A DNA stretch of 64,000 bases, taken from NCBI RefSeq assembly GCF_006770285.1, contig NZ_CP017195.1:1922001-1986000 (forward strand), in the 5' to 3' direction. The translations under genes and the position numbers were made by a program. Source of the DNA: Lactococcus paracarnosus (GTDB taxonomy: Bacteria; Bacillota; Bacilli; Lactobacillales; Streptococcaceae). Of the stretch, positions 45 through 64,000 are shown piece after piece. The first letter of the stretch is position 1; each line of letters begins with the position of its first letter. The notes under the pieces are model-generated. The model did not search any database, was not told the origin of the DNA, and saw nothing but the letters and a program-made list of their open reading frames with translations.

Positions 45-965
45 TTATAAACCCTTATAACTTTTTGCTTCCGCAGTATTTGCCCAAACAAAGTGACCTG
101 GTTTTATTTCTTGGAAACTTGGTTTATCTGTCTCATAGTCATGAATTGTATCATCATAAACGATGAGTTGCTTTTCTCTTTCAAGTGCTGGATCAGGTAT
201 GGGCACAGCAGATAACAAAGATTTTGTGTAAGGATGGATCGGATGATTAAATAATTCTTCCGTTTCTGCCATCTCAACAATATCACCATGATAGATAACT
301 GCTATCCGATCACTAATAAAGTGAACAACAGAGAGATCATGCGCAATAAAGAGATAAGTCAGACCTTTTTCTTCTTGTAACCGTTGTAAAAGGTTGAGCA
401 CTTGTGCTCTAATTGAGACATCTAAAGCGGAGATAGGTTCGTCAGCAATGACGAGACGTGGCTCCATGACAAGGGCACGAGCAATCCCAATACGTTGACG
501 TTGTCCACCAGAGAACTCATGAGGATAACGTGATAGATGTTCAGGCAATAGGCCAACTTCTTTGAGCATCGCTTCGACCTTAGCTTTACGCTCAGCCTCA
601 TCCTTATACATCTTAAAGTTATGTAGCCCTTCTGAAATCACGTAATCAACAGTTGCGCGTTCATTAAGTGAGGCAGCAGGATCCTGAAAAATCATTTGAA
701 TATCTTTAATCAACGCTTCTTTTTCTGAGTTCGCTAATTTTTTATTGATTTTTTTACCATCAAAAATGATATCCCCATTTTCGATTGTATTTAATCCCAT
801 AACTGCACGACCAATCGTCGTTTTACCGGATCCAGATTCACCAACTAAGGCAAACGTTTCCCCTTTATAAATGTCAAAGTTGGCATTTTTTACAGCAATA
901 TTTTTATTTTTACCTTCACCAAATGAAATCGAGAGGTCTTTTATTTCTAGTAATTTTTCAGCCAA
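45..965 (-). CDS. oppF: Oligopeptide ABC transporter ATPase OppF (AmiF type)
   Basis: One of two ATPases that power oligopeptide uptake at the inner face of the membrane. Walker [10 protein letters not shown], the signature FSGGQRQR and Walker B LVIADEP are all present, and the C-terminal oligopeptide-transporter domain ends in [14 protein letters not shown]. An in-frame ATG exists at 989, but I prefer TTG at 965: a strong AGGAGGGG lies 6 nt upstream, the product then begins [10 protein letters not shown] like streptococcal AmiF (xSEKLVEIKD), and the length becomes 306 residues (AmiF is about 308). With this start it overlaps oppD by 8 bp. Last gene of oppABCDF. A small GAAA-loop hairpin (26-46) overlaps the stop codon but has no T-run. 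Confidence 0.95.
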
Positions 966-2025
966 GGTTTGCCCCTCCTGCTTGGTCATAAATTTTGAGC
1001 ATCTTAGCGTGTAGGTCTTGAATACCTTCAGGCTTACTCATCTTTGGTGCACGATTGTCAAGCAACCACGTTTTTGCCCAATGGGTATCACTGACTGGGA
1101 ATTTTGGTGGAATTTCAACAAAATCAACAGCCATCGGACTCGGGTTACGAGGGGCAAAAGCATCCCCCTTAATCTCCGAGTATAAAGAAGGTGGCGTCCC
1201 TGCAATCGAGTAGAGTTTTTCTGTTGTCGCAAGTTGTGGCAAACTTGATAACAAGGCCCAAGTATAAGGATGACGGCTGTCATAGAAGATATCTTCAACT
1301 GTCCCATACTCAATAATCTCACCAGAATACATGACCGCTACTTTATCAGCAATTGACGCAACAACACCTAAATCATGCGTGATAAAAATCATGGCGAAGC
1401 CATACTCTGCTTTTAATTCTTTCAAAAGCGCAATAATTTGTGCTTGAATCGTCACATCCAGAGCAGTTGTTGGTTCATCACAAATCAACACTTTCGGACG
1501 AGAAGAGAGCGCGATTGCGATAACGATACGTTGGCGCATACCTCCAGAATACTGGAATGGATACTCATCATAGCGTTTCGCTGCTTCAGGAATCCCAACA
1601 CGATCCATTAGATCAATTGCGATTACTTTTGCTTCTTCTTTTGACTTCCCTTGATGCTTGATGATTGTTTCTGAAATTTGGCTACCGATTGTTTTTATCG
1701 GATTAAGTGACGTCATCGGGTCTTGGAAGATGGTCGAGATTTCAGCACCTCGAATTTTCTCCCATTGCGAGTTTGTCGTTAACTTTGTTAATTCAGTGCC
1801 TTTATAGAAGACTTGCCCCGTTGAAACTGAGCCATTTGACTCTAACATACCGGTAAAAACTTTCGTAAAAACCGATTTTCCAGAACCAGATTCTCCTACA
1901 AGTGCTAAAGTTTCGCCATCATGTAAATCTACTGATATATTACGAATAGCACGAAGTGTTCGTTTTCGTACTTCAAATTCAACACTGACATCCTTTGCAG
2001 AAAGGATTACTTTTTCTTCTTTCAT
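958..2025 (-). CDS. oppD: Oligopeptide ABC transporter ATPase OppD (AmiE type)
   Basis: Second ATPase of the oligopeptide importer, partner of OppF. It shows Walker A GESGSGKS, the signature YSGGMRQR, Walker B VLICDEP and the H-loop FITHDLG. The C-terminal part ([14 protein letters not shown], then [14 protein letters not shown]) matches AmiE/OppD proteins along its length. The reading frame is open to 2067, but ATG at 2025 has GAGGAG just upstream and gives 355 residues, the AmiE length. It follows oppC by 16 bp in the operon. Confidence 0.95.
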
Positions 2026-6515: not shown

Positions 6516-6566
6516 ATGCTTTCTCCTAATGAAATATTAAATTTTTTAAAAAGAATTTACATTCTT

Positions 6567-6595
6567 AGTTTACTTAAAATTTTCTTAAATGTCAA
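6567..6595 (-). promoter_or_regulatory. Promoter of the opp operon
   Basis: On the minus strand, TTGACA (6590-6595), a 17-nt spacer and TAAACT (6567-6572). It sits about 50 nt upstream of the oppA ribosome binding site and is the only good promoter in the gap between divIB and oppA. Confidence 0.8.
6578..6592. promoter_or_regulatory. Candidate CodY box over the opp promoter spacer
   Basis: AATTTTCTTAAATGT matches the lactococcal CodY box AATTTTCWGAAAATT at 12 of 15 positions. It lies inside the spacer of the opp promoter, a repressing position. CodY is known to repress opp in Lactococcus when branched-chain amino acids are plentiful; binding here is inferred. Confidence 0.5.
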
Positions 6596-6766
6596 GGAAT
6601 TCAGACACTTTTTTTAAAAGCAATGTCACAACTTATGACACACGATGTTATATTAGCGCGCAAGAGCTGATACGTTACTCTCAAAGGTGACAAATCTATA
6701 CCTGATAAACCTTATTTATGAGCCTTATTCAACGAGATTAGCCTATTTGATTGACAGACTATGAAA

Positions 6767-7819
6767 TTATTCAGATTTTTCAGTCTTACCAGTATCGTTA
6801 TTAGCATCTGCACTATCAGTTGATGGCTTATCCGATTTCTTATCTTTATTTTTATCAGCTTGGTCAGCTAACTCTTGTAAATAGGACGCTTTAGGTTTAG
6901 CATAAATCCCTGCTTCCATATCAATGACACTTGCTTGGGTTACACTCAAGACAACCGTTTTGTAGTAGGGTAGCTTATCTGCTATTTGACTGAGGGGTAC
7001 ACGTACTTGATTGCCATCTTTCATATCAATCGCAATAAAGTCAGCTGTTGCTTTTGTTGGGACTTTCGTAACCGTAGTCATTTGAGTCTTAACATCTGAT
7101 GCTAGTGTCTCATAAGCCTTGACAAATTGTTTAACTTCTTTATCAGAAAACCCTTCAAGAACAGGTATCCCAGCCAATTTCTGTGAGTCAACCACCTCAT
7201 TCGTCAATATCGCACCATTTGACAGCACGATCTGATAGTTAGGACCTGTCTTAAGATAGACACTCTCATTATATTCCGTAATTTTGGTCGTAAAGTGGTT
7301 TGGCAATTGCATACTGATCGTCGCTGATTTAACTCTCGGAAATGCTTTAGTAACGCGTAGTGAGATGTCACGTTTCGCTTTAATAATTTTCCAGACATGA
7401 TCACCCGTTTTAATGCTTGTTGCTGCAGCAATTTGTTTTGTTGATTCATGAACATTTCCGGTTGTCTTAAAACTACCGATTTTACTCAGCGGTGAAATAA
7501 CATAACCACTAGCTAATAGGCTTACGATTGCCACTAGCAAAAAAGGCCACATTTTCTTTAACACATGAGTTTTGGGAAGGCTTTCATTTTGTTTTGATGT
7601 TTTTTTAAATCTTGAAAAAAACGATTGCTTAGGCACTTTATCAGTCGTTGTAGTGGCTATTGCATCATATTTTTCAACGACAGATGCCACCTTAATTGGT
7701 TGTTTCTGTCGCCTCTCCTCACGTGCCTGCTTGGCTGCTTCTGCTACTTTCTTTTTCTGGAATGCTGCATGCTGTTTTTGCCAAGGGGTCAACTCTGGTT
7801 GTTTATCTTTATCTGCCAT
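6767..7819 (-). CDS. divIB: Cell division protein DivIB/FtsQ
   Basis: Bitopic divisome protein of about 350 residues that bridges early and late division proteins. A highly charged cytoplasmic tail (about 1-85, Lys/Gln/Ala-rich) precedes one membrane segment (MWPFLLVAIVSLLASGYVI), then a POTRA domain (GSFKTTGNVHESTKQIAAA...) and the beta domain, and a charged C-terminal tail rich in Lys, Asp and Ser. I start at ATG 7819 because AAGGA lies 8 nt upstream; an earlier in-frame ATG at 7828 overlaps that site. It overlaps the end of murG by 11 bp, so murD-murG-divIB is one transcription unit. Confidence 0.93.
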   Translation of the reverse strand: MADKDKQPELTPWQKQHAAFQKKKVAEAAKQAREERRQKQPIKVASVVEKYDAIATTTTDKVPKQSFFSRFKKTSKQNESLPKTHVLKKMWPFLLVAIVSLLASGYVISPLSKIGSFKTTGNVHESTKQIAAATSIKTGDHVWKIIKAKRDISLRVTKAFPRVKSATISMQLPNHFTTKITEYNESVYLKTGPNYQIVLSNGAILTNEVVDSQKLAGIPVLEGFSDKEVKQFVKAYETLASDVKTQMTTVTKVPTKATADFIAIDMKDGNQVRVPLSQIADKLPYYKTVVLSVTQASVIDMEAGIYAKPKASYLQELADQADKNKDKKSDKPSTDSADANNDTGKTEKSE

Positions 7820-12352: not shown

Positions 12353-13846
12353 TTACAACTTCATGACTTTTGGTTTAGGGATTTTCATGGTAAATGTTGA
12401 CCCACTACCAATCTCAGATTTAACAACAATCGATCCTTTATATATTTTTACAATATTTTGAATGATTGAAAGACCGAGACCAGTACCCCCAATTTCTCGA
12501 TTTCTGGCTTTATCCGCTCGGAAAAATCGGTCAAATATAAATGCCTGATCTGCCTCACCTATGCCTAGACCATGATCTAATACTTCCGAGACAATCATCT
12601 CTTCCTCTTCAAATATAGATACTTTGATATATTTCTCTTTTTCACCTGAATACTTAACTGCATTATCCATCAGAATCGTTAGTGCTTGTATATAATGATT
12701 TTTAAAAATTTGTGCCCACGCTTCAGAAGAAAGATGCGTTTCAAATTCAATAGTGAAATCCTGGTGAACCATCCTGAAATTATTTACTAAATCAGAAACA
12801 CACGACACGACTTGCGTCTGCTCCATCTCATTACCGCTAGTTTGTTTCAAACGTGCAATATCAAGCATATCTTGTATCATACTAGACATTTTCTGTATTT
12901 CTTGCCTGGATGCTTCTAAAGACTCATGTAACTGCTTAGGCTCATCTTTTCCCCACCGAAGCAAAAGATTGATGTGCCCATCTAGTACAGCCAGCGGTGT
13001 CCGTAACTCATGACTTACATCAGATACAAATCTTTCTTGTCCTTCTAAGTAATCTTGCCTTTTTTGCATCATATCGTTAAACACATCTGCCAATTCCTCT
13101 ATTTCATCTCCGGAATTGATCTTAATTTCCTCAAACTCTCCTGAGGGCAATTTGGTGATGCGCTTCATGGCTAAATGTAGTTTGGATAAGGGTTTTAAAA
13201 GATGACTCGATACAAAATAACCGATGAAGTTTGCCCAAAGCATGGCAACAACTTCTAAAGCAATTAAGATAAATAGGAGTTTATTACGAATCACATAATA
13301 AAAGTTCAGTTCATTAAACGATTGCAAATAGCCGACTACCTTACCTGTATTTTTAGACCTGATCTGTCTCGTAATAATAAAGCCTGTTTTTTTGCCCATC
13401 TTAACAATAACTGGTTTGGTCGTTTTTGTACTATAGAGTGAAATATTAGCTGTCTTGGCCGCAAAAATAATCTGCTTATCCTTATCATAAACCTGAAAAT
13501 AGTGCCAGTCTACACGAGGAATCCCGATTTCTCTGGCTGATTTAATTTCATGACCAGCTTTATCGTAAAAAGTTTCAAGCACACCTTCCTCTCGATACCC
13601 TAAATACTTATAGATATTTTGAGGAGTCAGATCATCATTAGCCTGTTCCAAATGTTCAGAAACAGAGTTAACAACCTTGACTAAATCTTCTTTTTCGCCT
13701 TCCAAAAAATACATAATCGACGTTTGATATGAAATGGTTGCAAAAATTGTAAAAACCAAAAAACAGAAAAGCATATTGGCAAAAGACCACTTGACTTTGA
13801 TACTGCGTTTTTTTACTTGTTTTTTTGGGGACGGTCGGTTTCCCAT
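12353..13846 (-). CDS. covS: Sensor histidine kinase, CovS/LlkinA-like
   Basis: Membrane sensor kinase of about 497 residues. The first membrane segment (MLFCFLVFTIFATISY) and second (LLFILIALEVVAMLWANFIGYFV) enclose an extracytoplasmic sensor region. Then come a HAMP linker, the dimerisation box FVSDVSHELRTPLAVLDGH with the phosphorylated His, an N box (LMDNAVKYS), G1 (DHGLGIG), an F box (FDRFFRADKARN) and G2 (GGTGLGLSI). ATG at 13846 has AGGAGAATTTG in front. It is paired with the CovR-type regulator 220 bp upstream; a strong hairpin lies between them. The gene symbol rests on length and on CovR being its partner. Confidence 0.85.
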   Translation of the reverse strand: MGNRPSPKKQVKKRSIKVKWSFANMLFCFLVFTIFATISYQTSIMYFLEGEKEDLVKVVNSVSEHLEQANDDLTPQNIYKYLGYREEGVLETFYDKAGHEIKSAREIGIPRVDWHYFQVYDKDKQIIFAAKTANISLYSTKTTKPVIVKMGKKTGFIITRQIRSKNTGKVVGYLQSFNELNFYYVIRNKLLFILIALEVVAMLWANFIGYFVSSHLLKPLSKLHLAMKRITKLPSGEFEEIKINSGDEIEELADVFNDMMQKRQDYLEGQERFVSDVSHELRTPLAVLDGHINLLLRWGKDEPKQLHESLEASRQEIQKMSSMIQDMLDIARLKQTSGNEMEQTQVVSCVSDLVNNFRMVHQDFTIEFETHLSSEAWAQIFKNHYIQALTILMDNAVKYSGEKEKYIKVSIFEEEEMIVSEVLDHGLGIGEADQAFIFDRFFRADKARNREIGGTGLGLSIIQNIVKIYKGSIVVKSEIGSGSTFTMKIPKPKVMKL

Positions 13847-53969: not shown

Positions 53970-54179
53970 AATACCCCCTCATACTGCCTAATTATGTTGC
54001 TTAATTCTAGCTTAAAGCAAGTCTTTCCAAAAGAGAATGGTCTTTATTGTCAAAATAGATAGACAAAGTTACAATGCTTACTATTGCTGAAAAATATGAT
54101 AAAATAGGCCTATTGACCTATCAAATTAACCCTACCTAAATATCTCATTGCTATCGGAAACATCGGAAAGGGAGTCCTT

Positions 54180-55016
54180 ATGTTACAGCTAAATACCAAA
54201 ACTTTCAATCCTGAACTTTTATACGTGTTCGACTGTCAAAACATTGGCCCGGCAACTAATCAACATCATTGTCATGACTTTTTGGAACTGTCTATTGTGC
54301 TAGATGGTAGTGTGGACTATGTGATCGGTGATCAAAAAACGCGCATACCAGAAAAAACACTCTTACTATTTAATCCTGGTGTCTATCATCACGAATCCTA
54401 CGAAGCTGGTATGTCTGCAACACAACTGCATATCGGTTTTCGAAACCTGACACTGCATGGTGTGCCACGTGACCGGTTTCCATTCACCTCTTCTATTATC
54501 AAGTTAACTGATTTTGAAGCCCAGTTTTTTGATGTCTGTAAGGCTATACTGCTAGAAAAAGCGACCGCTTATCCTGGATACGATTTGATGATCAAGGCAC
54601 TCGTCATGAAATTAATTGTCCTTATCTTACGAGACTCCGCCACTAGCCAACTTGAAACCAATGCCCTCAAGTTATCTTATGAAGCACAAGAAAAGCAAGT
54701 CATGATTGAGCATATCATCGACTACTTGGAAGCGCATCATGATGAAGAGGTGTCCTTATCTACTTTGTCGCAATCACTCTATATGAGCCCTACCTATATT
54801 TCTCGCGTATTTAAAGAAGAGACTGGCGAATCTCCGATTAATTACCTGATCAAAATTCGTTTAGCGCGTGCCAAAGCCTTACTAAAAAGCAATGCTAACG
54901 TCACCGTTAAGGAAGCCGCAAACCAAGTTGGCTATAGCGATGCTTTCTACTTCAGCAAGCTCTTTAAAAAATATTACGGCAAATCTCCATCCACTTTGCT
55001 AAGACGACATAAATAG
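54180..55016 (+). CDS. AraC-family transcriptional regulator
   Basis: Protein of 278 residues with an N-terminal cupin sensor (NQHHCHDFLELSIVLDGSVDYVIGDQ, LLFNPGVYHHES) and a C-terminal pair of helix-turn-helix motifs (LSQSLYMSPTYISRVFKEETGESPINYLIKIRLARAKALL; ANQVGYSDAFYFSKLFKKYYGKSPS). This build is typical of carbohydrate-responsive AraC regulators, but the neighbour is an ABC exporter operon, not a sugar operon. GGAAAGGGAG precedes the ATG. Confidence 0.9.
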   Translation: MLQLNTKTFNPELLYVFDCQNIGPATNQHHCHDFLELSIVLDGSVDYVIGDQKTRIPEKTLLLFNPGVYHHESYEAGMSATQLHIGFRNLTLHGVPRDRFPFTSSIIKLTDFEAQFFDVCKAILLEKATAYPGYDLMIKALVMKLIVLILRDSATSQLETNALKLSYEAQEKQVMIEHIIDYLEAHHDEEVSLSTLSQSLYMSPTYISRVFKEETGESPINYLIKIRLARAKALLKSNANVTVKEAANQVGYSDAFYFSKLFKKYYGKSPSTLLRRHK

Positions 55017-55041
55017 CCTGTCTAACAGACAGGCTATTTAT
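55011..55041. terminator. Bidirectional terminator
   Basis: AAATAGCCTGTCT-AAC-AGACAGGCTATTT, a 13-bp stem between the convergent araC-type and dbpA-like genes, overlapping the stop codon of the former. Confidence 0.88.
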
Positions 55042-56502
55042 TTACTCATATTTTCCGGCATTTGCACGAGATACTTTACGTACGCGACCTTTAATTTTCT
55101 CAGTTTGGAGCGCTTTTAATACTTTACTACCATTGCCATTTAGAATCTCAACAAAGGTAGATACTTCAACGATAGCAATCACACCGATATCATCACCACT
55201 AATACCAGGAATACTGGTAATGGCACCTACCACATCACCTGCTCGTAATTTTGTTTTCTTACCAGCATTGATATGTAACTTCATGATTTCATCTTTAAAG
55301 ACCGTATTCTTATCTGTTTTCAAGACGAGTTCTCTATTTTGCTTGGCGATAAACGAAGGCAAGCGTTTATCAAACAGACTAACACTTGGTAACTGCATCT
55401 CTGCTATGGTAGCATCAATCCCCGCTTGAACCTGCTCAATTTTAGCAAAGTCACTTCGTTGTGCAGCACTAACCAAAGAAATCGCTTGTCCCGTTTTCTC
55501 GAAACGCGCCGATCTTCCGATACGGTGGGTATAGGCATCAGGATTATCAGGTAGATCATAATTATAGACAACTGCGATATCGGCAACATCTATGCCACGC
55601 GCTGCAACATCTGTCGCAATCAAATAACGGAAATAATTATGTTTGAAATCATTAATCACACGCGTTCGATCACGTTGTTCCATACCACCATGTAGCGTTT
55701 CATTTGGTACATTCTTCTGCTGTAAGTAGTCTGAAATAGCATCAACTGCTGCTCTTGTATTCGCAAAAATAATAGTAGAATCTGGATTTTCCATCACCAA
55801 TAACTGGTATAGATTTTCTAGCTTATCTTCTTTGTCAACTAAGTAGAAGGTTTGGTCAATTCGTTTTGAAACGGCATTGGTCGCCTTAACCTCAACCAAG
55901 ATCGGATTTTTAACATAAAAATCCGCGACATCTTTAACCGCCTTTGGTAAAGTCGCTGAAAATAGGGCGACCTGAGGTTTGCTTGGTAATTCTTCAAATA
56001 TAGCATCAACCTGATCCATAAAGCCCATGCTAAGCATCTCATCCACTTCGTCGAGCACAACTAGTTTAATTAAATCTAACTGAATCGTCCCTTGGGCGAT
56101 ATGATCTAACAATCTACCCGGTGTCGCAACGACAACATGCGTCCGTTCTTTCAAATTACGAACTTGCGCTTGAAAAGATGAATGGCCAATCAGTGTTTCA
56201 ACTTTTATCCGTTTGAAACGCCCAACATTAAAGATTTCTTCACTTATTTGCGAGGCAAGTTCTCGGGTTGGTGCAAGCACAAGTACTTGCGGGCGACGTT
56301 CTTCCCAAACCACTGTTTCAACGATTGGTATGGCAAAAGCGGCCGTTTTACCACTACCCGTCTGTGACTTAACAAGCAAGTCATGTCCCGCTGTCAATTC
56401 TGAAATAACAGCTTCTTGTACCTCGGTTGGTTGCGTATATCCTAGAGCAGTCAGTGCCTGCTGTGTTTTTTGGCTAATATTTAATGTATCAAATGTCTTC
56501 AT
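55042..56502 (-). CDS. dbpA: DEAD-box RNA helicase, DbpA/YxiN-like
   Basis: ATP-dependent RNA helicase of about 486 residues. Motifs in order: Q motif (GYTQPTEVQ), I (SQTGSGKT), Ia (PTRELA), II as DEVD rather than DEAD, III (SAT), V (ATDVAARGID) and VI (HRIGRSAR). A C-terminal domain of about 75 residues (LHINAGKKTKLRAGDVVGAITSIPGISGDDIG) is the DbpA RNA-binding domain that targets 23S rRNA helix 92. ATG at 56502 gives the family start (MKTFDTLNIS); it has no ribosome binding site and lies 6 nt after a -10 box, so the mRNA is probably leaderless. An in-frame TTG at 56538 falls in the -35. Confidence 0.9.
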   Translation of the reverse strand: MKTFDTLNISQKTQQALTALGYTQPTEVQEAVISELTAGHDLLVKSQTGSGKTAAFAIPIVETVVWEERRPQVLVLAPTRELASQISEEIFNVGRFKRIKVETLIGHSSFQAQVRNLKERTHVVVATPGRLLDHIAQGTIQLDLIKLVVLDEVDEMLSMGFMDQVDAIFEELPSKPQVALFSATLPKAVKDVADFYVKNPILVEVKATNAVSKRIDQTFYLVDKEDKLENLYQLLVMENPDSTIIFANTRAAVDAISDYLQQKNVPNETLHGGMEQRDRTRVINDFKHNYFRYLIATDVAARGIDVADIAVVYNYDLPDNPDAYTHRIGRSARFEKTGQAISLVSAAQRSDFAKIEQVQAGIDATIAEMQLPSVSLFDKRLPSFIAKQNRELVLKTDKNTVFKDEIMKLHINAGKKTKLRAGDVVGAITSIPGISGDDIGVIAIVEVSTFVEILNGNGSKVLKALQTEKIKGRVRKVSRANAGKYE

Positions 56503-56508
56503 CTTGTG

Positions 56509-56538
56509 ATTATAACACGGAACCCCACCAGACCGCAA
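56509..56538 (-). promoter_or_regulatory. Promoter of the dbpA-like gene (leaderless)
   Basis: On the minus strand TTGCGG (56533-56538), an 18-nt spacer and TATAAT (56509-56514). The seventh base past the -10 is the A of the ATG. Confidence 0.6.
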
Positions 56539-56685
56539 TAGGGCTCACGAAAGGCGGTATGATGAGAGTTCTTAAAAAAACGGCCTCCATAGATTTAAAC
56601 CAAGGGATTGTTAGAACGTCACGCATTTTTTGTCAGGTAAGGTGCTGTGTGTCTATGATACACGGCTTTTTTATGTCAACAATTG
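56539..56685. other. Non-coding stretch with an orphan terminator
   Basis: No gene is evident. On the plus strand GCTGTGTGT (56644-56652) and ATACACGGC (56658-56666) form a stem followed by T6, a good terminator with no plus-strand gene before it. A small RNA of roughly 100 nt is possible. TTGTCAACA and GTCAACA repeats follow at 56675-56690. Confidence 0.4.
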
Positions 56686-56953
56686 TCAACATGCTTTAGA
56701 CCTAGTCAAATGTAATAATGGATACAGTCTATTTTGATCATCTACTTCTTTTCTGCTGCTTACAACAAAATTATTTTTATAATAGCATTTTTTTGGCAGA
56801 TTCATTTTGTTCATTTACATCTACGCTTAAAATACCTTTAGACGATGTTAATTTTTTTATGACGAACGTTCCGATACCTTGATTGATATATAAAGGATCT
56901 ATGAAAAGCATTTCAAGATGTGTGCCATTACAACTGTTAAATCCTACTAACAT
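56686..56953 (-). pseudogene. GNAT N-acetyltransferase remnant (frameshifted, 5' truncated)
   Basis: Read on the minus strand from 56953, the frame gives a GNAT core: VGFNSCNGTHLEMLFIDPLY, then INQGIGTFVIKKL (acetyl-CoA loop) and GILSVDVNEQNESAKK. It stops early, but dropping one base in the A7 run (56788-56794) continues it as NNFVVSSRKEVDDQNRLYPL and LLHLTRSKAC, the normal end of such enzymes. The first 60 or so residues of the family are missing upstream. So it is a decayed gene; an assembly error could explain the frameshift but not the missing 5' part. Confidence 0.8.
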
Positions 56954-57318
56954 ATCATTTTAAACTTTAGGGGCAGGATTTATCTCATGGAAACCCATGG
57001 TAAGCGTCATTTTGTCACGTTTTAGTCAATATATGAGCGGAGGGATGATACGTGCACATAATATATTTGGGGAGTCCCCCTCACATCGGTTCCATTACAT
57101 TATATTTAGGGCAAACCTTTTTCGACCAGAGTATCTACACTTTTCCAAAACCTACCGTGAGAAAATAGGTACGAGGTAACGACAAACTTTGCTACATAAC
57201 CAAAAGATGACTTTTCTATACTGTTACTGGATTTTTCGTTTATTTTACACTAAAATTAAGTTAGTATAAAAACTTTACAATAGAACAATCAATATTAATA
57301 ACGGAGGTGAATTAAAAA
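56954..57318. other. Non-coding stretch before the accessory genes
   Basis: About 365 bp with no convincing gene. A 60-codon plus-strand frame (56997-57179) lacks a ribosome site and family features. GGGGAGTCCCC at about 57070 is a small hairpin. At the 3' end TTTACA...TATAAA and TACAAT-like elements precede the next gene; the spacing is poor. Confidence 0.4.
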
Positions 57319-57654
57319 ATGATACAATTCGAACGTAGGGGCATTCAAATTATAGACTTTATTTTATTTATTATGTTTTGTTTATTTTGTATTATTTCCT
57401 ATATGACTTCAAACAGTTCCTATTTTTTTGTAGGTGATGTTTTTTTGACCATTATGGTTTTTATAGATATTGATATCATTAAGATCAAAAAAATACATAA
57501 ATTAAACGATGAACAACTAAGAGAAATTAACTATATGCTTACAAAAAAAAGAAAATTTTTAATAATAAGGAAAATAGGGAAATATACAAATTTAGGATAT
57601 GGAAAATCACAAGCAATATACAAGCAATTAGTTGTAGAAGAAAGAAATACTTGA
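57319..57654 (+). CDS. Hypothetical membrane protein (111 residues)
   Basis: A strong GGAGGTGA lies 9 nt before the ATG, so translation is likely. Two hydrophobic segments (about 10-27 and 35-52) are followed by a basic, helical cytoplasmic part (IKIKKIHKLNDEQLREINYMLTKKRK) and a C-terminal tail. No family is recognised. Base composition is AT-rich with Ile/Phe/Lys-heavy codons, unlike the housekeeping genes to the left. First of a run of plus-strand accessory genes. Confidence 0.65.
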   Translation: MIQFERRGIQIIDFILFIMFCLFCIISYMTSNSSYFFVGDVFLTIMVFIDIDIIKIKKIHKLNDEQLREINYMLTKKRKFLIIRKIGKYTNLGYGKSQAIYKQLVVEERNT

Positions 57655-57811
57655 CCTATACAGGCTAAGATCAATTTTTATCTCGTTATAATCTTGTCAA
57701 TTACGATCAAAGAAACACCAGCCATACTGGTTTTTATATTAGGTTCATTATGCCCAAAAATGTAATAGCTTACAAAGTCAATTTCCCATAATTTAGTATT
57801 TTGTAGTCCTG

Positions 57812-57823
57812 TCACGCGCGTGA
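57812..57823. repeat. GC-rich palindrome TCACGCGCGTGA, copy 1
   Basis: A perfect 12-bp palindrome in AT-rich DNA, 29 bp before the start of the 34-residue peptide. A near copy stands before the gene at 58891. Confidence 0.6.
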
Positions 57824-57852
57824 TCATAATCTTAATAACAAGGAGAAAATAA

Positions 57853-57957
57853 ATGACAACTAAAGATAAAAAAGCAACGACTAAAGTTGCAATAGTGACT
57901 ATTTTAGGTGTAATAGCTGTTTTACTTGTGCCTATGTTATTTAGTTACTTTAATTAA
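57853..57957 (+). CDS. Small membrane peptide (34 residues)
   Basis: AAGGAG lies 7 nt before the ATG. A charged Lys/Thr-rich N-terminus (MTTKDKKATTK) leads into a single hydrophobic helix (VAIVTILGVIAVLLVPMLF) and ends SYFN. The layout (short basic tail, one membrane helix) is that of small membrane regulators or type I toxin-like peptides; no antisense RNA was identified. I do not recognise it. Confidence 0.6.
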   Translation: MTTKDKKATTKVAIVTILGVIAVLLVPMLFSYFN

Positions 57958-58011
57958 TTCTATTACCGTATATGTGTTCCCAGTCACTAAAACTGGTAGA
58001 AAGAAAATATC

Positions 58012-58170
58012 ATGGATAACTTTTACTTAATCATGTGGTTTATATCGTTAGTTCTCTGTTGGATTGCATTCTGGAATGATTGGAAAAACCTATCCAAATT
58101 TCAAAAATGGGCGCTTACTTTTAGCTTAGCAATGTGTTTAATCGCTATATCTCGAACTTGGTTATCTTGA
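58012..58170 (+). CDS. Small Trp-rich two-helix membrane protein (52 residues)
   Basis: Starts at ATG 58012 with only a weak AGAAAG upstream. Two hydrophobic helices (FYLIMWFISLVLCWIAFW and WALTFSLAMCLIAI) flank a basic linker (NDWKNLSKFQK). Six Trp in 52 residues is unusual. It ends 17 bp before the ATG of the K+ channel region. Not recognised; the topology could suit a channel partner or an immunity-type protein. Confidence 0.5.
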   Translation: MDNFYLIMWFISLVLCWIAFWNDWKNLSKFQKWALTFSLAMCLIAISRTWLS

Positions 58171-58187
58171 CATAAAAATTTAAAACT

Positions 58188-58246
58188 ATGACCACATTAA
58201 AAAAAAAATTTATAATAGCGATTTATATACCTTCGTAATCGTTATA
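58188..58246 (+). other. Out-of-frame 5' end of the K+ channel gene (A10 tract)
   Basis: ATG at 58188 begins MTTLKKK and runs through ten A (58199-58208), then stops at 58236. One extra A would join it to the channel frame as IYNSDLYTFVIVILALF, which is a credible first membrane segment. So the channel's true N-terminus is probably here, out of frame by one base. Confidence 0.6.
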
Positions 58247-58828
58247 TTGGCGCTTTTTTCGCTTTTTTCGCTTTTTTCGCTCTTTGCACCACTTACAGAT
58301 AGACAAGATCTATATATCGATGTCATTTTCATAGTAGATCTCTTATTATCAACCCTTATTTTTATTAGGTACTTTGATAACAAATCATATAAAGAATATG
58401 TCAAACATCATATTTTTGATATTATTTCATGTATTCCTATACAATTTTTAAGTATTTTTAAAACATTTAGATTGGTAAGACTAGTAAGAATATCACGACT
58501 TTTCAAATTAAGCCGAACAACTAACCTATCCCGTAAAATTACGATATCTAATCTCTTTAAGTTTGATACATTTAAAGAACTTTTTATCTATTTAACTATC
58601 TATCTGATTGCTAACGCTTATATTTTTAGGGAAATCGAACATGTCTCTATTTTAAATTCAATTTATTGGGTTGTGACTACAATCACAACAGTTGGTTATG
58701 GGGATATTACACCAACTCATGATGTCACAAAAATATTAGCAATGTTCCTAATGGTAATCGGTGTTGCAGTAATGGGATATGTAAACGGTGTTATAATTTC
58801 AGTAGTTATGGGACAATATAAAAAATAG
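58247..58828 (+). CDS. Voltage-sensor-type potassium channel
   Basis: The open frame gives 193 residues from a TTG with no ribosome site. Segments: part of S1 with an LFS repeat, S2 (IDVIFIVDLLLSTLIFI), S3 (HHIFDIISCIPIQFLSIF), a clear S4 with basic residues every third position (FRLVRLVRISRLFKLSR), S5 (ELFIYLTIYLIANAYIF), the selectivity filter TTVGYGD and S6 (ILAMFLMVIGVAVMGYV). It is a compact six-segment K+ channel. The missing start of S1 is recovered if one base is added in the upstream A10 tract. Confidence 0.8.
   Translation: MALFSLFSLFSLFAPLTDRQDLYIDVIFIVDLLLSTLIFIRYFDNKSYKEYVKHHIFDIISCIPIQFLSIFKTFRLVRLVRISRLFKLSRTTNLSRKITISNLFKFDTFKELFIYLTIYLIANAYIFREIEHVSILNSIYWVVTTITTVGYGDITPTHDVTKILAMFLMVIGVAVMGYVNGVIISVVMGQYKK
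58251..58286 (+). repeat. 9-bp tandem repeat in the K+ channel gene
   Basis: Three perfect copies of CGCTTTTTT (58251-58277) and a degenerate fourth. Each adds Leu-Phe-Ser to the first membrane segment in frame, so copy number would alter its length. Confidence 0.9.
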
Positions 58829-58831
58829 TTA

Positions 58832-58843
58832 TTACGCGCGTGA
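58832..58843. repeat. GC-rich palindrome, copy 2 (TTACGCGCGTGA)
   Basis: Matches copy 1 (57812-57823) at 11 of 12 positions. It lies 4 bp past the K+ channel stop and 48 bp before the next gene. Confidence 0.55.
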
Positions 58844-58890
58844 CGCATTAATAAAAATAGTAGTAAACATGGCATTAAACTGGAGAAAAA

Positions 58891-59949
58891 ATGATTAATA
58901 AAAAAGCATGGGAAAAATCTTTTAGACAAGTAAATGGTAGAGATCCAAATGAAAATGAGTATCAAAAAGCTGTATTACATGGTTTAGTAAAGGAACCGGA
59001 TACTAGGACTAGAAGCCCTAAAAAAGCTTATATCATTATTGGTATTATTGTTGGTGCTTTTCTGTTAATAGTCATAACGTTTTTATCGACTTTACTACTA
59101 TTTCCAGTACCTAAAAGCAATCATACTGAAAGTTTTAATACTGGTTCTGTTGAGAGTGTATCCAGTTCGAGCAGTTCTTCTCAATCTAGTTCCTCGGATA
59201 CTTCTCAGCAAGACTTAACAACATGGAAAAACCTATCTTTAAACGAACAAATCGCTTTATTAGCACAATCTTATACGGCAATAAACCCTCAAACTACTCT
59301 TTTAAGCGCTGATAAGATTGCAATGACAGCTAATGACGATAAGGGCGTTAACGATGGGTTTATTCAGTGGTATGATAATACACATAATTTAAACAGACTT
59401 GATGTACTTATAGATAACGAGACAATTTCTTTCAGCTATATTGGCCCCACAGGACAATCAGAAAGAAAAAAAGACAAAATAAGCACTATTTTATCTAATT
59501 ACTTCAAAGCTAGCACCGCTAAAAAAACTACTGAAACATTGGCATTAAAAATGGTTACACCAGCAGAATTGTATAAGTCAAACGTCAGTGAAAAAGACTT
59601 AGATATCGCTGCCATAAGTAACGGAGATATTAGTTCTTTAGTGGGTAGTTGGAAGAATGGTAATGGGGATATAATTTCAATCAATGCCGATAAAACTGCT
59701 ATCGTAACTTTTGACAAAGTTCCCCATCTATATAATATATTTACTACTAGTAAACATGTTAATAATGGAGATATTCCAAGCATAGGTATGGGACCTAGTT
59801 CTGGTGAGATTGGAGGTGCTGCACTTGCATTATTTAGAATAGACTTCAAAAATCCTGACGGTGATCAATCTGATACAACTAAATCAAGATTACTAATGAC
59901 TCAAAGCAGAGGTAATTTTCCTACTAATAGCTATTATTATAGAAAATAA
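58891..59949 (+). CDS. Membrane-anchored exported protein, possible DUF6287 domain
   Basis: Protein of 352 residues. A cytoplasmic N-terminus (WEKSFRQVNGRDPNENEYQKA, a motif I have seen in other Lactobacillales membrane proteins) is followed by one membrane segment (AYIIIGIIVGAFLLIVITFL), a Ser-rich linker and an outer domain. ISSLVGSWKNGNGDIISINADK near 245-265 resembles the DUF6287 type of lipocalin-like module. CTGGAGAAAA precedes the ATG. Function unknown; the location outside the membrane is inferred from the single anchor. Confidence 0.65.
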   Translation: MINKKAWEKSFRQVNGRDPNENEYQKAVLHGLVKEPDTRTRSPKKAYIIIGIIVGAFLLIVITFLSTLLLFPVPKSNHTESFNTGSVESVSSSSSSSQSSSSDTSQQDLTTWKNLSLNEQIALLAQSYTAINPQTTLLSADKIAMTANDDKGVNDGFIQWYDNTHNLNRLDVLIDNETISFSYIGPTGQSERKKDKISTILSNYFKASTAKKTTETLALKMVTPAELYKSNVSEKDLDIAAISNGDISSLVGSWKNGNGDIISINADKTAIVTFDKVPHLYNIFTTSKHVNNGDIPSIGMGPSSGEIGGAALALFRIDFKNPDGDQSDTTKSRLLMTQSRGNFPTNSYYYRK

Positions 59950-60331
59950 AATATCTATTTTAAAAAAGTATAGAACAGTACAGTTAAATGAATAATAAGC
60001 ATTCAAAATATAATAATCTGATACATTATGCAATTACAAAAAATGTATTCAAGCACGCTAACTATATTGAGATTGAAAACATAGGTTTTCCTAAGGATTA
60101 GTTGGAGAAGCTCATATGTCAATAATATATACCAATATTTAAGGGATATATATCAATACCATCCGTCACCTTCTAGCCCTTGCGTTACACTACTTTTTTA
60201 GAACGGCAACGCGCTAACCTGTTGGTATACATAGCTTTATACGCTTTTGTTTCCTTATTACCTGATTAGCTGAAATAATACTAAGTTAGATATAATTCAT
60301 CTCCCCATACAACTAGTAAACTGGAGAGAAT
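59950..60331. other. Non-coding stretch before the integrase remnant
   Basis: About 380 bp with no gene or strong hairpin that I can support. The integrase remnant is preceded by CTGGAGAG. Any attachment site would lie near here or past 60753, but I could not find a convincing pair of direct repeats. Confidence 0.4.
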
Positions 60332-60753
60332 ATGAATATAAAAGAAGTCACAAAAAAAGACGGTACAATGATGTACCGAGCTAATGTTTATCTTGGTGTG
60401 GATAGTTTAACGGGTAATAAAGTGCAAACTACTGCTACTGCTAAAACTCGTAAAATGTGCGAGATCAAAGCTAATCAAGCTATTAATAAGTTTATCTGTA
60501 ATGGGTCTACTATTGCAAGGGAAAAAGTTGTCTTTTATAATTTCATCACTTTGGCTCTAAGTTGCTTTGATAATTACAAGCTAATAGTGTAAGGGTAGCT
60601 AATAACTTTTTAAAAGTCTATATATGCCTACTCTTGGCTCATTTCAGCTTAATAAGATCAATGCTATTACAAGGTATTATCAATCAGCGGGCTAGGAACG
60701 CTAACGATTATAAGGTGCACCTAAACTCAAACAAAGAACAATCACTAAAATAA
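60332..60753 (+). pseudogene. Tyrosine-type integrase remnant
   Basis: The first 86 codons encode an arm-type DNA-binding domain (VTKKDGTMMYRANVYLGVD, KTRKMCEIKANQAINKF) and stop. Integrase sequence continues in other frames: VANNFLKVYI, then MPTLGSFQLNKINAIT, then GIINQRARNANDYKVH, ending at 60753. These are the start and middle of the core-binding domain. At least three frame changes are needed and the whole catalytic domain is gone. It marks an old prophage or ICE insertion. Confidence 0.82.
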
Positions 60754-60910
60754 AATACTTTGATAACTAAGAAAAACGAAGTATAGCAATGGTATCTTGT
60801 GTTAAGTGAGATAGGAGCAAAAATTATGTATTGGATTTCAAAAACGTTTTATTTAAATCAAATTGTGCCTAGCATCTATTTATCACCTTCTCTTTTTTCA
60901 GAGGTCAGAT

Positions 60911-62191
60911 ATGTTAGCTAAAATTCAAAAATTTACCTTGCCTTTAATGCTTACCCAGTTACTACAATTGCTTGTTGGACAGTTAACGATGATTATTGCT
61001 GTTAATAAAAGCACAAATAACATGTCCGGAATTACAACAGTACAAAGTTTTCTTTATGCTTTAGCCGGTATTTTAGGAGCCGTTGCTTTCGCTTTTAATA
61101 TTTTAGGAAGTGAGGCGGTGGGCGCTAAAGATGATAAAAAATATCAGGCATTGATTAAAGCATCTCTCATTATCAACTTAAGTGTTGGATTGATATCTGG
61201 TGTTGTACTGGTACTAGGTGGGCATCTTTTTTTATCAGTTATTTATGGATTTTCAGGCGAAATACTAAAAGTTGCAACCTGGTATCTATTAATACAATCT
61301 CCTTATATTTTATTAATTCTATTTACTTTCTTATTTACTAATTTACTAAAAATGAAAAAAAAGACACAATGGATTTTATATATATCTACGTTAACGATGC
61401 TATTTAATATTGGCATTAATTGGTTTTTTGTCCAGTATTTATCGTGGGGTATAATAGGTGCAAGCTTATCATCGACTTGCATACTAACCATTTCTGTTTT
61501 AACATATGGTTTTATTTTGCGACACACACTCGCTAAGGCGTTGACTAGCCGAGTTATGGCTATTGGAGATATTTTACAAAAATCGCTTCCTTTGGTGGGG
61601 CAAGAAATTTTAGAAGGTGTCGTTTTGATTGTTGTCTTTGATGCCTTAATAGCAAGACTTGGTGTTAATACATTAGCATTATATGCAATATGTATGCAAG
61701 CGATAACTTTTATCAAAATACCGACAATGATGTATGGTAATGCAGTTACAATATTTGTTGCTGAAGCAAAAGGTAATAATAGCGTGAAACAAGACTTGTC
61801 TAGTATTTTAAGGATAACAATAACAAGTTCTAGTATTTTCTATTTTTCAGGTATGGTTCTATTTAATTTATTTGGATCAAATTATGCTAGTCTATTTGTT
61901 AATCAGGAATTAGCCACACAATTTAAAATAGCTTTCATGACAGTTGCTAGCCTAACTGTATTTTCTATAAGTTATGAGCTATTAAAATATTGTCTTCAAG
62001 CACTTGGAGAAGAAAAAAAAGTTTTGAATTTGACTTTTTTTGTTAATGGTTCAGCTTGTTTGATTATGATTATATGCCAATTACTATCGATGAGTAGCTT
62101 TACTTTCCTTTATGTGATGAATGGTTTGGCTTTGTTACTACTAAGTATTACTTTCATCTGGAAATTGAAAATGAAAATGAAATTAATGTAG
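60911..62191 (+). CDS. MATE-family efflux transporter
   Basis: Membrane protein of about 426 residues with twelve hydrophobic segments in two related halves, as in MATE exporters that use Na+ or H+ gradients. The N-terminal FTLPLMLTQLLQLLVGQLTMIIA and the repeat-half start SLPLVGQEILEGVVLIVVFD are typical. The frame is open from a GTG at 60863, but ATG at 60911 has AGAGGT 5 nt upstream and gives the normal family start. It lies just past the integrase remnant; the substrate is unknown. Confidence 0.88.
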   Translation: MLAKIQKFTLPLMLTQLLQLLVGQLTMIIAVNKSTNNMSGITTVQSFLYALAGILGAVAFAFNILGSEAVGAKDDKKYQALIKASLIINLSVGLISGVVLVLGGHLFLSVIYGFSGEILKVATWYLLIQSPYILLILFTFLFTNLLKMKKKTQWILYISTLTMLFNIGINWFFVQYLSWGIIGASLSSTCILTISVLTYGFILRHTLAKALTSRVMAIGDILQKSLPLVGQEILEGVVLIVVFDALIARLGVNTLALYAICMQAITFIKIPTMMYGNAVTIFVAEAKGNNSVKQDLSSILRITITSSSIFYFSGMVLFNLFGSNYASLFVNQELATQFKIAFMTVASLTVFSISYELLKYCLQALGEEKKVLNLTFFVNGSACLIMIICQLLSMSSFTFLYVMNGLALLLLSITFIWKLKMKMKLM

Positions 62192-62278
62192 CATGACCGT
62201 TTCGTATTTTCATTAGAACTGTCGTGCGCTCTTCAGTTCTAATTATGAACCTGAAAAATGCCATATTACATTTTAGTA

Positions 62279-62313
62279 CAAAAAATCCATCAGCAAAATG
62301 ATAGATTTTTTTT
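62279..62313 (+). terminator. Terminator downstream of the MATE gene
   Basis: AAAAATCCATCA and TGATAGATTTTT pair with one mismatch, followed by a T-run. Confidence 0.75.
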
Positions 62314-62454
62314 ATGTTTAAAATTAAGTAATGACTAGATCACAGAATTGGTGGACTAATGTTCTGTTTCTTTGGTCATCTATCTGTCGTGTCAAAATCA
62401 GTTACATCTTATCCTGCCTAACTTAAACAAACAACAATAAGCCTAAAACACTAG

Positions 62455-62483
62455 TTGACATTGTATACTAGCTGTGCTAAACT
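62455..62483 (+). promoter_or_regulatory. Promoter of the padR-type gene
   Basis: TTGACA (62455-62460), a 17-nt spacer and TAAACT (62478-62483). Confidence 0.8.
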
Positions 62484-62504
62484 TTATCCATAAGCTAGTA
62501 TACA
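62462..62504. promoter_or_regulatory. Inverted-repeat operator of the padR-type gene
   Basis: TGTATACTAGCT (62462-62473) and its exact complement AGCTAGTATACA (62493-62504) flank the -10 with a 19-nt gap. The arms match PadR-type operators in being AT-rich with a GTATAC core; autorepression is likely. Confidence 0.65.
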
Positions 62505-62531
62505 TTATATAGTAGCAAGGAGATAAAATCA

Positions 62532-62873
62532 TTGACTATCAACAGCCAATTGCTTAAAGGGACATTAGATGGTGCTATACTCATTATGATTTCAAAAGGT
62601 GAAACTTACGGGTATGAAATTACAAAAAAACTAGAGATGATCGGATTTCTGTCTATAGCTGCAGGAACTATCTATCCAATTTTACAAAAATTAGAGCGAG
62701 AAGCCTATATTACAGGAGACATGAAAGCCTCTTCTGAGGGACCCAAACGGAAATATTTTACAATAACCGAAAAGGGACTAGACAAGTTACACGCTTTTTT
62801 TAGTGATTGGGCAACACTCACAGTGGCTATGGAAAACTTGATACAAGAATTTGAAAGCGATGAGGACAAGTAA
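62532..62873 (+). CDS. PadR-family transcriptional regulator
   Basis: Winged-helix regulator of 113 residues: QLLKGTLDGAILIMISKGETYGYEITKKLEM, then AAGTIYPILQKLEREAYI and RKYFTITEKGLDKLHAF, the PadR pattern. The start is TTG with AAGGAG 9 nt upstream. It forms a two-gene operon with a membrane protein 60 bp downstream, a common PadR arrangement. A 12-bp inverted repeat spans its promoter. Confidence 0.92.
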   Translation: MTINSQLLKGTLDGAILIMISKGETYGYEITKKLEMIGFLSIAAGTIYPILQKLEREAYITGDMKASSEGPKRKYFTITEKGLDKLHAFFSDWATLTVAMENLIQEFESDEDK

Positions 62874-62933
62874 CCAGTATCCTAACACCCATACTTGCTA
62901 TTTGATAGCTAATTATTAGAGAGGTAATCATGC

Positions 62934-63527
62934 ATGACAACTATAGGACAGCAGTTTAAAGCAGATAAAGCGGAACATATAAAAAACAAAGCACTTATAG
63001 ACCAAATGACCCCTGAAAATAAAGCGTATGATGAGACCTTCGTCGCATCATTATATGCACCTTATCAGTTGTCAGGCAAAGATAGTCGAAGCCTGCCAGA
63101 CATTATAGAGACTGTACGAGCTGATATCTTATTAGCTCAAAAAACGCAGCAAGCAGCAGAATCTTATTTCGGTATGCAAGCTGAAACCCTTGCCAGACAA
63201 TTTATAGATACCTTACCTCAAAAAACGCTAAAACAAAAAATTAAAAGACAAGGTCTCATTTCAGCCTATTTAGCTGTCATTTTCGCAATCATTTTCTTTA
63301 CCCCTTTGTTTGGTGGCGGATTAACGCCTCAAAATATTGGCCTTTTTACATTAACCCTGCTACTAAACTTATGCTTACTATATGTTGATTTATATGTACC
63401 AGATTGGCTATTTACACTTTTCCCTCAAAAGAGTCATAAAACGCGTGATTGGATTAAAAACTATCTGACAGCTGGAATCGCAACACTCTTTCTTATCATC
63501 ATTCTGATTGTAAAATACTTACTTTAA
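62934..63527 (+). CDS. PadR-linked membrane protein
   Basis: Protein of 197 residues. The first 110 are soluble, charged and helical (PENKAYDETFVASLYAPYQLSGKD); then come about three hydrophobic segments (AYLAVIFAIIFFTPLF, NIGLFTLTLLLNLCLLYVDLYV, AGIATLFLIIILIVKYLL). Such proteins are often encoded after padR genes and may relay membrane stress; I cannot name the family with certainty. GAGAGGTAA precedes the start. Confidence 0.7.
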   Translation: MTTIGQQFKADKAEHIKNKALIDQMTPENKAYDETFVASLYAPYQLSGKDSRSLPDIIETVRADILLAQKTQQAAESYFGMQAETLARQFIDTLPQKTLKQKIKRQGLISAYLAVIFAIIFFTPLFGGGLTPQNIGLFTLTLLLNLCLLYVDLYVPDWLFTLFPQKSHKTRDWIKNYLTAGIATLFLIIILIVKYLL

Positions 63528-63559
63528 GCATGTAAACATAATAGGGTTCATACACATAC

Positions 63560-63597
63560 AAAAGTCACAATGCTGTCATAAGCTTGGTGACTTTTTT
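63560..63597 (+). terminator. Terminator of the padR operon
   Basis: AAAAGTCAC (63560-63568) and GTGACTTTT (63587-63595) form a 9-bp stem followed by T. Confidence 0.8.
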
Positions 63598-63668
63598 GTA
63601 TCCTAACATTTTCCATTTTTTTCGATATCTACTTGCCTAAATAACAGCAGCATAACTCACTTATTGGC

Positions 63669-63702
63669 ATAAAAATAATCGCTATCCATGATAACGACTA
63701 TT
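63669..63702 (-). terminator. Terminator of the SDR gene
   Basis: AATAATCGCTATC (63674-63686) and GATAACGACTATT (63690-63702) pair with two G-U type mismatches around a CAT loop; on the minus strand a T-run follows. Confidence 0.75.
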
Positions 63703-63738
63703 ACTATTATTTGGCTTTTTCTAAACTTTTTTACAAGG

Positions 63739-64000
63739 TTAGGCTAGAAGTTCTGAAATGGCCTCAGTTACAGGCGTTAGCGCATGACCAAGTAAGGTTT
63801 CAAAATCAGTACTTGTGACGTCAAGCTCGCCAGCTGAGATATCTGATTGGATGGCTGTTACAATCCCAACTACTTCACTTGGTAAACCAGCAGACACTAA
63901 GGCTGCTTTGTAATCAGAAATCGTCATTGAGACCGCATCAATCGTTTTACCAGTCGCAGTTTCCAAGGCTTGGTGCAGATCAGCATAGCTTAAACGGGGG
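63739..64000 (-). CDS. SDR/NmrA-type NAD(P)H-dependent oxidoreductase, C-terminal part
   Basis: The frame runs off the right edge; only the last 87 or so residues are seen. The text RLSYADLHQALETATGKTID, then DYKAALVSAGLPSEVVGIVTAI and SDFETLLG-like STDFETLLGHALTPVTEAI match the C-terminal region of NmrA/QorB-like SDR proteins (substrate-side helices). The N-terminal Rossmann motif lies outside the window, so the assignment rests on the tail alone. Confidence 0.65.
   Translation of the reverse strand, partial: PRLSYADLHQALETATGKTIDAVSMTISDYKAALVSAGLPSEVVGIVTAIQSDISAGELDVTSTDFETLLGHALTPVTEAISELLA

Follow-up and report, generated by a model that had tools for sequence, protein, structure and literature searches.

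A decayed satellite-type integrative element beside dbpA of Lactococcus paracarnosus carries a gene for a predicted voltage-gated K+ channel, a candidate superinfection-exclusion gene

KvAP and KvLm, the latter of which we take to be Lmo2059, have been studied as cellular channels, and to our knowledge the purpose of bacterial voltage-gated channels is largely open. The chlorovirus K+ channel Kcv is a pore-only protein without a voltage sensor. In the accessible text of PMC7019647, a depolarisation probably set off by Kcv prevents a second infection. RexB of the lambda RexAB system is described as an ion channel in the available parts of PMC12894663 and PMC11436027, and the part of PMC6163359 that we had names a single phage K+ channel, that of Lactobacillus phage PLE, without giving a position or an exclusion role there. 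Phage satellites such as the phage-inducible chromosomal islands (PICIs) are characterized in the accessible text of PMC6092414 by an integrase at one end and attachment (att) repeats, divergent regulators with a master repressor, a replication module, the absence of structural genes, and induction and packaging by helper phages. Here we analyse an island between dbpA and a MATE-family gene in a 64,000-nucleotide stretch of the 2.27-Mb Lactococcus paracarnosus genome (G000:C1:1922001-1986000, hereafter the window, in which positions are counted), with 12 genomes of the genus (G000-G011) as comparison set. The island is the remnant of a satellite-type integrative element, and it includes a gene for a predicted voltage-gated K+ channel.

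An initial annotation made from the window alone had placed a GNAT remnant, proteins of 111, 34 and 52 residues, a channel, a one-anchor exported protein and a dead integrase in the interval from the dbpA-like gene to the MATE gene. The corresponding open reading frames (ORFs), that of the exported protein with 352 residues, are present and lie on the plus strand, the only exception to the common orientation being the possible GNAT remnant. Judged by the segments it shares, the island is a decayed third copy of a satellite-type integrative element, of which two fuller siblings reside in the same chromosome. A search of its own genome returned five island segments in the first sibling (L009, C1:53000-72000), three in the second (L010, C1:757000-776000), and one each in two further loci (L011 and L012). 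Common to the island and both siblings are the integrase-distal end, the region upstream of the integrase and the integrase start. The integrase-distal end (56503..56690, minus strand) is joined to dbpA; its positions 56602-56688 are 88.6% identical to L009 and 56509-56686 are 73.6% identical to L010. The integrase-upstream region (60177..60324, plus strand) is 79-82% identical to the two siblings. L009 additionally has the 34-residue gene and the segment at 57012..57121, which is 78% identical to L009 11554-11671, 77% to L093 and 76% to L098. The integrase itself is a disrupted N-terminal remnant of a tyrosine integrase (60332..60732, plus strand), which contains stops and matches the intact L010 integrase in two pieces (77% identity over 60332-60607 and 50% over 60571-60732); in L009 as in L010, the tyrosine integrase is complete. 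The dead integrase and the carriage by a lost element that had been proposed for this region were therefore borne out, the element now being recognizable as of the satellite type. In the window remnant only the start of the integrase is left, and no repressor or replication gene was seen.

Both siblings have an integrase at one end and flanking att repeats, with a core repeated at both ends in L010 (15/16 bases; 0/500 shuffles) and in L009 (13/16 bases; 9/500 shuffles). They resemble Gram-positive PICIs and satellites (Streptococcus Javan287, Javan375 and others; Lactococcus bIL310), whose integrases are about 45% identical to that of L010 over its length, and also in their accessory genes near the integrase, their small size and their Prim-Pol (found by Pfam in L009 and L202, in a scan that took in three proteins of L009 and none of L010). 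A CI-type helix-turn-helix (HTH) protein was found by Pfam in L044 and L202, where an oppositely oriented HTH-like ORF was recognized by eye. Two related IMG/VR contigs, L202 and L203, have a 75% identical channel 17 bp behind CI. L202 encodes Prim-Pol and a D5-type helicase (Pfam) and ends before any integrase; in L203, the matching ORFs were recognized by eye, and its integrase is of the type seen in this group. Unlike PICIs and satellites, the window copy is without core genes and a recognizable far att site, and a gene for a prohead protease is present in the related L202 (Peptidase_S78, E 1.2e-49; 956-1546, minus strand), so that the absence of structural genes does not extend to it. A similar ORF was seen by eye in L203 (1160-1750, minus strand).

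If the two full siblings were ordinary prophage remnants, the island would be a decayed prophage. The Peptidase_S78 gene speaks for this, as L202 shares a primase type and a small gene with the group, and an integrase type through its near-twin L203. The core-to-core lengths of ~6.3 kb (L010) and ~7.9 kb (L009) argue against it, as do the replication gene of L009, which is a Prim-Pol, and the integrase relatives. The L010 integrase matches 2044 phage records. Three 'Bacteriophage sp.' without annotation come first (67.7-68.9% identity), followed mostly by streptococcal satellite phages (~45%), which also make up many of the best annotated relatives. We therefore consider a prophage origin unlikely and retain the satellite-type element. 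The prohead serine protease lies in elements that are otherwise satellite-like, which recalls capsid-forming satellites. In L009, the accessory slot is occupied by a 208-residue protein that is pentapeptide-repeat-like by eye (6502-7128).

The element lies against dbpA in a way that may explain why one of its ends has lasted. Upstream of dbpA, a -35-like TTGCGG (56533-56538) is spaced 18 bp from a -10-like TATAAT (56509-56514). The same layout, TTGC(G/A)G-18 bp-TATAAT, was found in 6/7 aligned element ends, at four loci in three genomes (window, L009, L010, L043, L045 and L098; the seventh row, L102, was aligned the wrong way round and is left out of the count). The four hybrid loci comprise dbpA, seen in three strains, and a single gene next to each of L009, L010 and L098; those beside L009 and L010 are presumably plsX and a cvpA-like gene. 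In these hybrids, the first hexamer lies inside the element and the second within the core, which overlaps the -10-like box. By its sequence, the element end would thus still form the dbpA promoter, with the -35 supplied by the element and the -10 by the core. The lasting conservation of 56503-56690 amid decay would then be due to its being part of that promoter. This suggests how a dead satellite may persist, its end having been turned into part of a host promoter. The conserved end also includes a terminator-like hairpin with a 10-bp stem (56644..56666, plus strand).

The channel gene (58188..58828, plus strand) matches Pfam Ion_trans_2/Ion_trans (Ion_trans_2 E 9.6e-17) and phrog_7872 (E 5.9e-30). 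The phage homologs of this channel occupy a recurrent position. A tblastn search with the channel matched 11 phage records, and gene context was read for four of the 11: PLE2, JNU_P5, Dulem virus 33 and a contig of Enterococcus faecalis that has no annotation and was interpreted by eye. Each of the four has the channel gene flanked by a CI-type HTH gene on one side and an integrase or recombinase gene on the other, all on one strand. The channel also matched 34 plasmid records, and one of the four opened, pBF11 of L. paracasei, has this slot.

For a larger count, two scans of IMG/VR gave 121 and 132 confirmed relatives, whose best 80 loci each merged into 90 contigs; the channel ORF was recognized in 86, L168, L187, L192 and L196 being dropped. 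The slot was scored as a CI-type HTH within 3 kb upstream and an integrase within 6 kb downstream, both on the strand of the channel. CI was found in 75 of the 86 viral contigs, an integrase in 70 and both in 69. After clustering at 70% identity (n=29), 23 clusters had CI, 20 an integrase and 20 both in at least one member. Control holin loci had CI, integrase and both in 0/80 each, in a set that includes short contigs and has an integrase anywhere in only 8/80. Four DUF771 loci had CI in two, an integrase in one and both in none. A cellular scan yielded at least 525 confirmed relatives; in the best 80 loci, 78 had a recognized ORF (L309 and L314 were dropped), with CI in four, an integrase in four and both in three. 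These counts have limits: several phage channels of the slot type were already in the first seed alignment, the CI and integrase hidden Markov models were refined on viral loci, and a sequence was retrieved only if it had either a TTVGYG-type motif or a second one.

We next considered the protein itself. The window channel has the K+ filter TTVGYGD, and T-x-TTVGYGD is invariant in 25/25 aligned sequences, a partly circular result since TTVGYG was used in retrieval. The putative S4 helix carries regularly spaced arginines (TFRLVRLVRISRLFKLSR in the window), with R91 invariant and R106 nearly invariant among the 25. Searches of PDB chains with phmmer returned KvAP (1orq, E 4.9e-12, residues 37-200), Lmo2059 (4h33, E 6.9e-10, pore) and many other K+ channels; unlike those two cellular channels, the window channel is satellite cargo. 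The top Foldseek matches are voltage-gated K+ (Kv) channels (E 4.7e-4) with poor full-length superposition, and NaK pores superpose at 3.6-5.7 Å. The K+ pore is therefore firm, and the voltage sensor rests on sequence.

The channel had been counted among the intact genes of the island, which it is not. The ATG (58188-58190) is out of frame with the long open frame (58199-58828), and translation from it ends after 16 codons at a stop (58236-58238). In a DNA alignment with G001 and L. piscium, both of which have in-frame copies, the A run of the window (58199-58208) is of another length. Just behind it, a 9-bp tandem repeat of 3.9 copies (58251..58285, plus strand) is 18 bp longer than in these two relatives, a difference that keeps the frame. 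The window channel thus has no complete frame from its start codon. With the frame interrupted so close to the ATG, channel function in the window has probably been lost or is rarely expressed.

The ratio of nonsynonymous to synonymous substitution rates (dN/dS) of the channel is nevertheless low, at 0.12-0.21 in six pairs and 0.13-0.19 in the three that include the window copy. The 52-residue gene has 0.03-0.06 (three pairs, with only 1-2 nonsynonymous and 5-6 synonymous changes) and dbpA 0.02-0.05 (three pairs). Higher values were obtained for the 352-residue gene (0.22-0.49, three pairs), the 34-residue gene (0.45-1.5, three pairs with few changes) and the 111-residue gene (0.54, one pair with 3.5 synonymous and 8.5 nonsynonymous changes). 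From the low dN/dS we infer that the channel and the 52-residue peptide were selected until recently and that the break in the window is young. The broken A run could alternatively be a contingency switch, in which part of the cells regain the frame by slippage and the channel is phase-variable. The ten consecutive A in the first codons, the tandem repeat just behind them and the low dN/dS of the pairs with the window copy fit such a switch. The break is, on the other hand, found in one genome only, two relatives being in frame, and a young pseudogene would look alike, which makes a switch quite unlikely.

From its slot between CI and integrase, we infer that the channel is a lysogenic-conversion gene, located in phages and fuller elements between repressor and integrase. 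It would be expressed together with the CI repressor in the quiescent, lysogenic state. DNA entry by another phage would disturb the membrane potential, the S4 helix would sense the change and the K+ pore would open, so that K+ loss or clamping of the potential would stop the incoming infection. The 52-residue hairpin is possibly a partner of the channel. Superinfection exclusion by a potential-sensing channel, as read from sequence and from analogy, is a tentative proposal whose chances we place a little short of even. In combination, a satellite wreck in the dbpA promoter that carries a lysogenic-conversion or exclusion channel is an explanation that we consider probable on the whole. More speculatively, Kv channels may be widespread, overlooked exclusion genes of prophages and satellites that unite an S4 sensor and a K+ efflux effector in one protein, in some elements together with a very small two-helix partner, for example the 52-residue peptide. 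If so, at least some bacterial Kv channels would have a physiological role, and the repeated tie of the channel to the repressor-integrase slot makes the question of Kv purpose accessible to ordinary phage genetics. A link to membrane potential had been suggested for the whole gene set; it is supported for the channel alone.

The proposed channel function has partial parallels in described systems. PLE2 gp27, an ion transporter and the phage K+ channel named in PMC6163359, belongs to the same ion-channel family and occupies the slot between CI and integrase, but it is 26% identical to the window channel and has a longer C-terminus. In lambda RexAB, a membrane channel gene likewise lies near CI and an effect on membrane potential has been proposed (PMC12894663, in the available part). 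The channel would be a one-protein counterpart of lambda RexB, although it differs from RexB in being an Ion_trans protein. By eye, no RexA-like partner stands beside the channel, besides CI, in the window, L043, L045, L202 or L203, and no RexA profile was searched. Kcv is similar as a virus-encoded K+ channel, but it acts at the entry of a lytic algal virus.

A number of observations weigh against this explanation. At the element, the right att site of the window is unrecognizable, its best candidate having 7 mismatches, a score equalled by 369/500 shuffles; the right edge of the island, somewhere after 60732, is undefined as a result. The empty site that had been expected in related genomes did not appear either. 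No precise empty site was found at dbpA among the related genomes compared: in the three closest genomes (window, G001 and L. piscium), the interval from dbpA to an NmrA-like gene holds remnants throughout the set, and G007 and G008 have other genes upstream of dbpA. At the channel, the AlphaFold2 model reaches high confidence in the pore alone, where blocks of ten residues score up to 96, with a mean predicted local distance difference test score of 69.9 and a poor sensor. A PADLOC scan gave no family for it. The slot was not shown in 17/86 viral contigs or 9/29 clusters, and three of the four opened plasmid loci are without it. In another L. piscium satellite (L044), the slot between the CI-type repressor and a full integrase is taken by the genes of the 352-residue protein, the 34-residue peptide and a RhuM-family protein, without a channel. 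In the accessible text of PMC12894663, no depolarisation was detected upon activation of Pseudomonas putida RexB, so that the analogy is itself uneven. Among the papers listed by our literature search, outside which subscription papers and preprints mostly lay, none described a prophage K+ channel in exclusion in its title or the opening of its abstract, and we saw no experiment on exclusion by such a channel.

Also among these points, K+ channels have other roles as well, and 75 of the 78 nearest cellular loci (from the best 80 of at least 525 relatives) lack the slot, which makes roles of the family outside prophages likely. This favours a different reading of the same element, with the channel as a host-fitness moron that serves K+ or osmotic homeostasis, or acid or cold tolerance. 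Prophages do carry fitness genes in the repressor-integrase slot. However, the viral channel is tied to that slot in 69/86 contigs, and the gene tables of PLE2, JNU_P5, pBF11 and Dulem virus 33, in which many genes are unnamed, name no transport or stress gene between CI and integrase. In pBF11, an Abi family gene lies there. Rex-type genes, too, are found near CI (PMC12894663, available part). A fitness role therefore seems somewhat unlikely to us, and we keep exclusion as the candidate function of the channel.

The accessory genes of the island are cassettes that are combined differently across related genomes. The dbpA site of L. piscium (L045) has the 111-, 34- and 52-residue genes, the channel and an integrase relic, without the 352-residue gene. 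At the dbpA site of G001 (L043), relics of the 111- and 34-residue regions, integrase-upstream DNA and an alpha/beta-hydrolase-like gene (by eye) are followed by the 52-residue gene, the channel and the 352-residue gene. The RhuM gene that accompanies the 352- and 34-residue genes in L044 (9959-10957) matches Virulence_RhuM (E 1.1e-100) and the PADLOC candidate PDC-S05, and the gene just past the L044 integrase (12597-13223) presumably encodes a TMEM175-like K+ channel. G007 and G008 have channels of 70% and 68% identity at another locus, without the 352-residue protein; the small gene beside them also occurs in L009, L010 and L202/L203. Distant channel matches were found in G002 and G003 (25-28% identity). 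The closest named relative found is L. piscium DSM 6634, whose channel locus L271 matches the channel of G006 at 100% identity.

The individual genes show the same mixing. The 34-residue peptide (57853..57957, plus strand; one helix) recurs in satellites of the group, with copies 82-85% identical in L009 of the same genome and in L045 and L044 of L. piscium, and it adjoins a different cargo gene in L009. The 111-residue gene is intact in L. piscium (93.7%) and a relic in G001, and the 352-residue protein has relatives 72-75% identical in L044 and G001. The 52-residue peptide (58012..58170, plus strand; two helices) adjoins the channel in 3/3 genomes where it was found (window, G001 and L. piscium; 96-98% identity). 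No match to it was found beside the channels of G007, L202 or L203, and the G008 contig begins inside the channel gene. The co-occurrence of small peptides and channel, which had been raised as a question, thus holds in one direction for the 52-residue peptide: it comes with the channel wherever it was found, but no match to it accompanies the channel of G007, L202 and L203. Pfam scores of both peptides are sub-threshold only, and weak matches of the 52-residue peptide to Glycos_transf_4 (Pfam E 0.0017) and LmuB (PADLOC E 0.0056) were taken as chance. The helices of these and the other small proteins were judged by eye; the general membrane character first ascribed to the set appears right.

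This distribution bears on the single membrane-potential or envelope-stress module that had been suggested, in which the 111-, 34- and 52-residue proteins, the channel and the 352-residue protein would act together. Their common strand and the preserved order of four of the five genes at the L. piscium dbpA site are what a fixed module would predict. We rejected it as very improbable, since the genes are scattered among satellites and loci: the 352- and 34-residue genes lie in another satellite without the channel, and the channel occurs elsewhere without both. The dN/dS values also differ greatly between the genes, and one cassette junction falls on a palindrome. Rather than a module, the island suggests how satellites exchange small membrane cassettes.

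The palindrome ACGCGCGT, whose sharing between two genes of the island had been pointed out, indeed occurs twice in the 64 kb, against 0.26 expected, and two occurrences were reached in 1/100 shuffles. The first copy (TCACGCGCGTGA, 57812..57823) is upstream of the 34-residue gene and the second (TTACGCGCGTGA, 58832..58843) marks the cassette junction, where similarity to L. piscium jumps from the channel to the upstream region of the 34-residue gene. Palindromes like TCACGCGCGTGA recur in or next to satellites near gene starts or ends (L010 5994, L009 12541, L044 8577 and 9764). Exact CACGCGCGTG has four sites in the genome, of which two belong to these elements and the other two fall within long ORFs elsewhere; a reversed control pattern occurs once. 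The palindrome may be an operator or a recombination seam. As a CI operator it was rejected, since the interval between CI and cro in L044 has no copy even when 2 mismatches are allowed. A different palindrome, TCTCGCGCGAGA, is present in two satellites (L009 10476-10487 and L093 12762-12773).

The remaining features of the island gave few family matches. The proposed GNAT remnant exists as a 58-residue ORF (56777..56953, minus strand), but its assignment is weak: three GNAT Pfam models match at E 0.003-0.004, all under cut-off, and its matches among the loci searched are only copies of the window itself. The 111-residue predicted membrane protein (57319..57654, plus strand) was assigned to no family of Pfam, PADLOC or PHROG at the cut-offs applied. 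The 352-residue protein (58891..59949, plus strand) appears exported with one anchor (by eye) and contains a DUF6287 domain (E 5.4e-10). It also matches phrog_10008 (E 2.7e-25), a profile matched in 236/295 genomes of the family, mostly over its C-terminal part, and therefore no phage marker on its own. Viral contigs contained no confirmed relatives of the 352-, 52-, 34- or 111-residue proteins. An Enterococcus phage match (H22) of the 352-residue protein was rejected as phage carriage, its neighbours being bacterial housekeeping genes. The content of L351 (OR846615.1), filed as an Enterococcus phage, resembles ordinary bacterial chromosomal genes.

Rfam gave no match at the gathering threshold over 54000-64000. 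Terminator-like hairpins are found at 8 sites on both strands of 56400-60950, against 1.7 expected. The AT-richness noted for the island is real: G+C in 500-base windows is 0.24-0.35 over 56500-60749 against 0.39-0.43 over dbpA (55000-56499). The MATE side is equally AT-rich (0.29-0.33 over 60750-62499), and base composition therefore gives no boundary on the right. The MATE gene with a short upstream region (60871-62278) lies on another contig in L. piscium (L101 7578-8986) and is missing from the dbpA-PadR interval of G001; for this reason, the MATE gene too may be an insertion.

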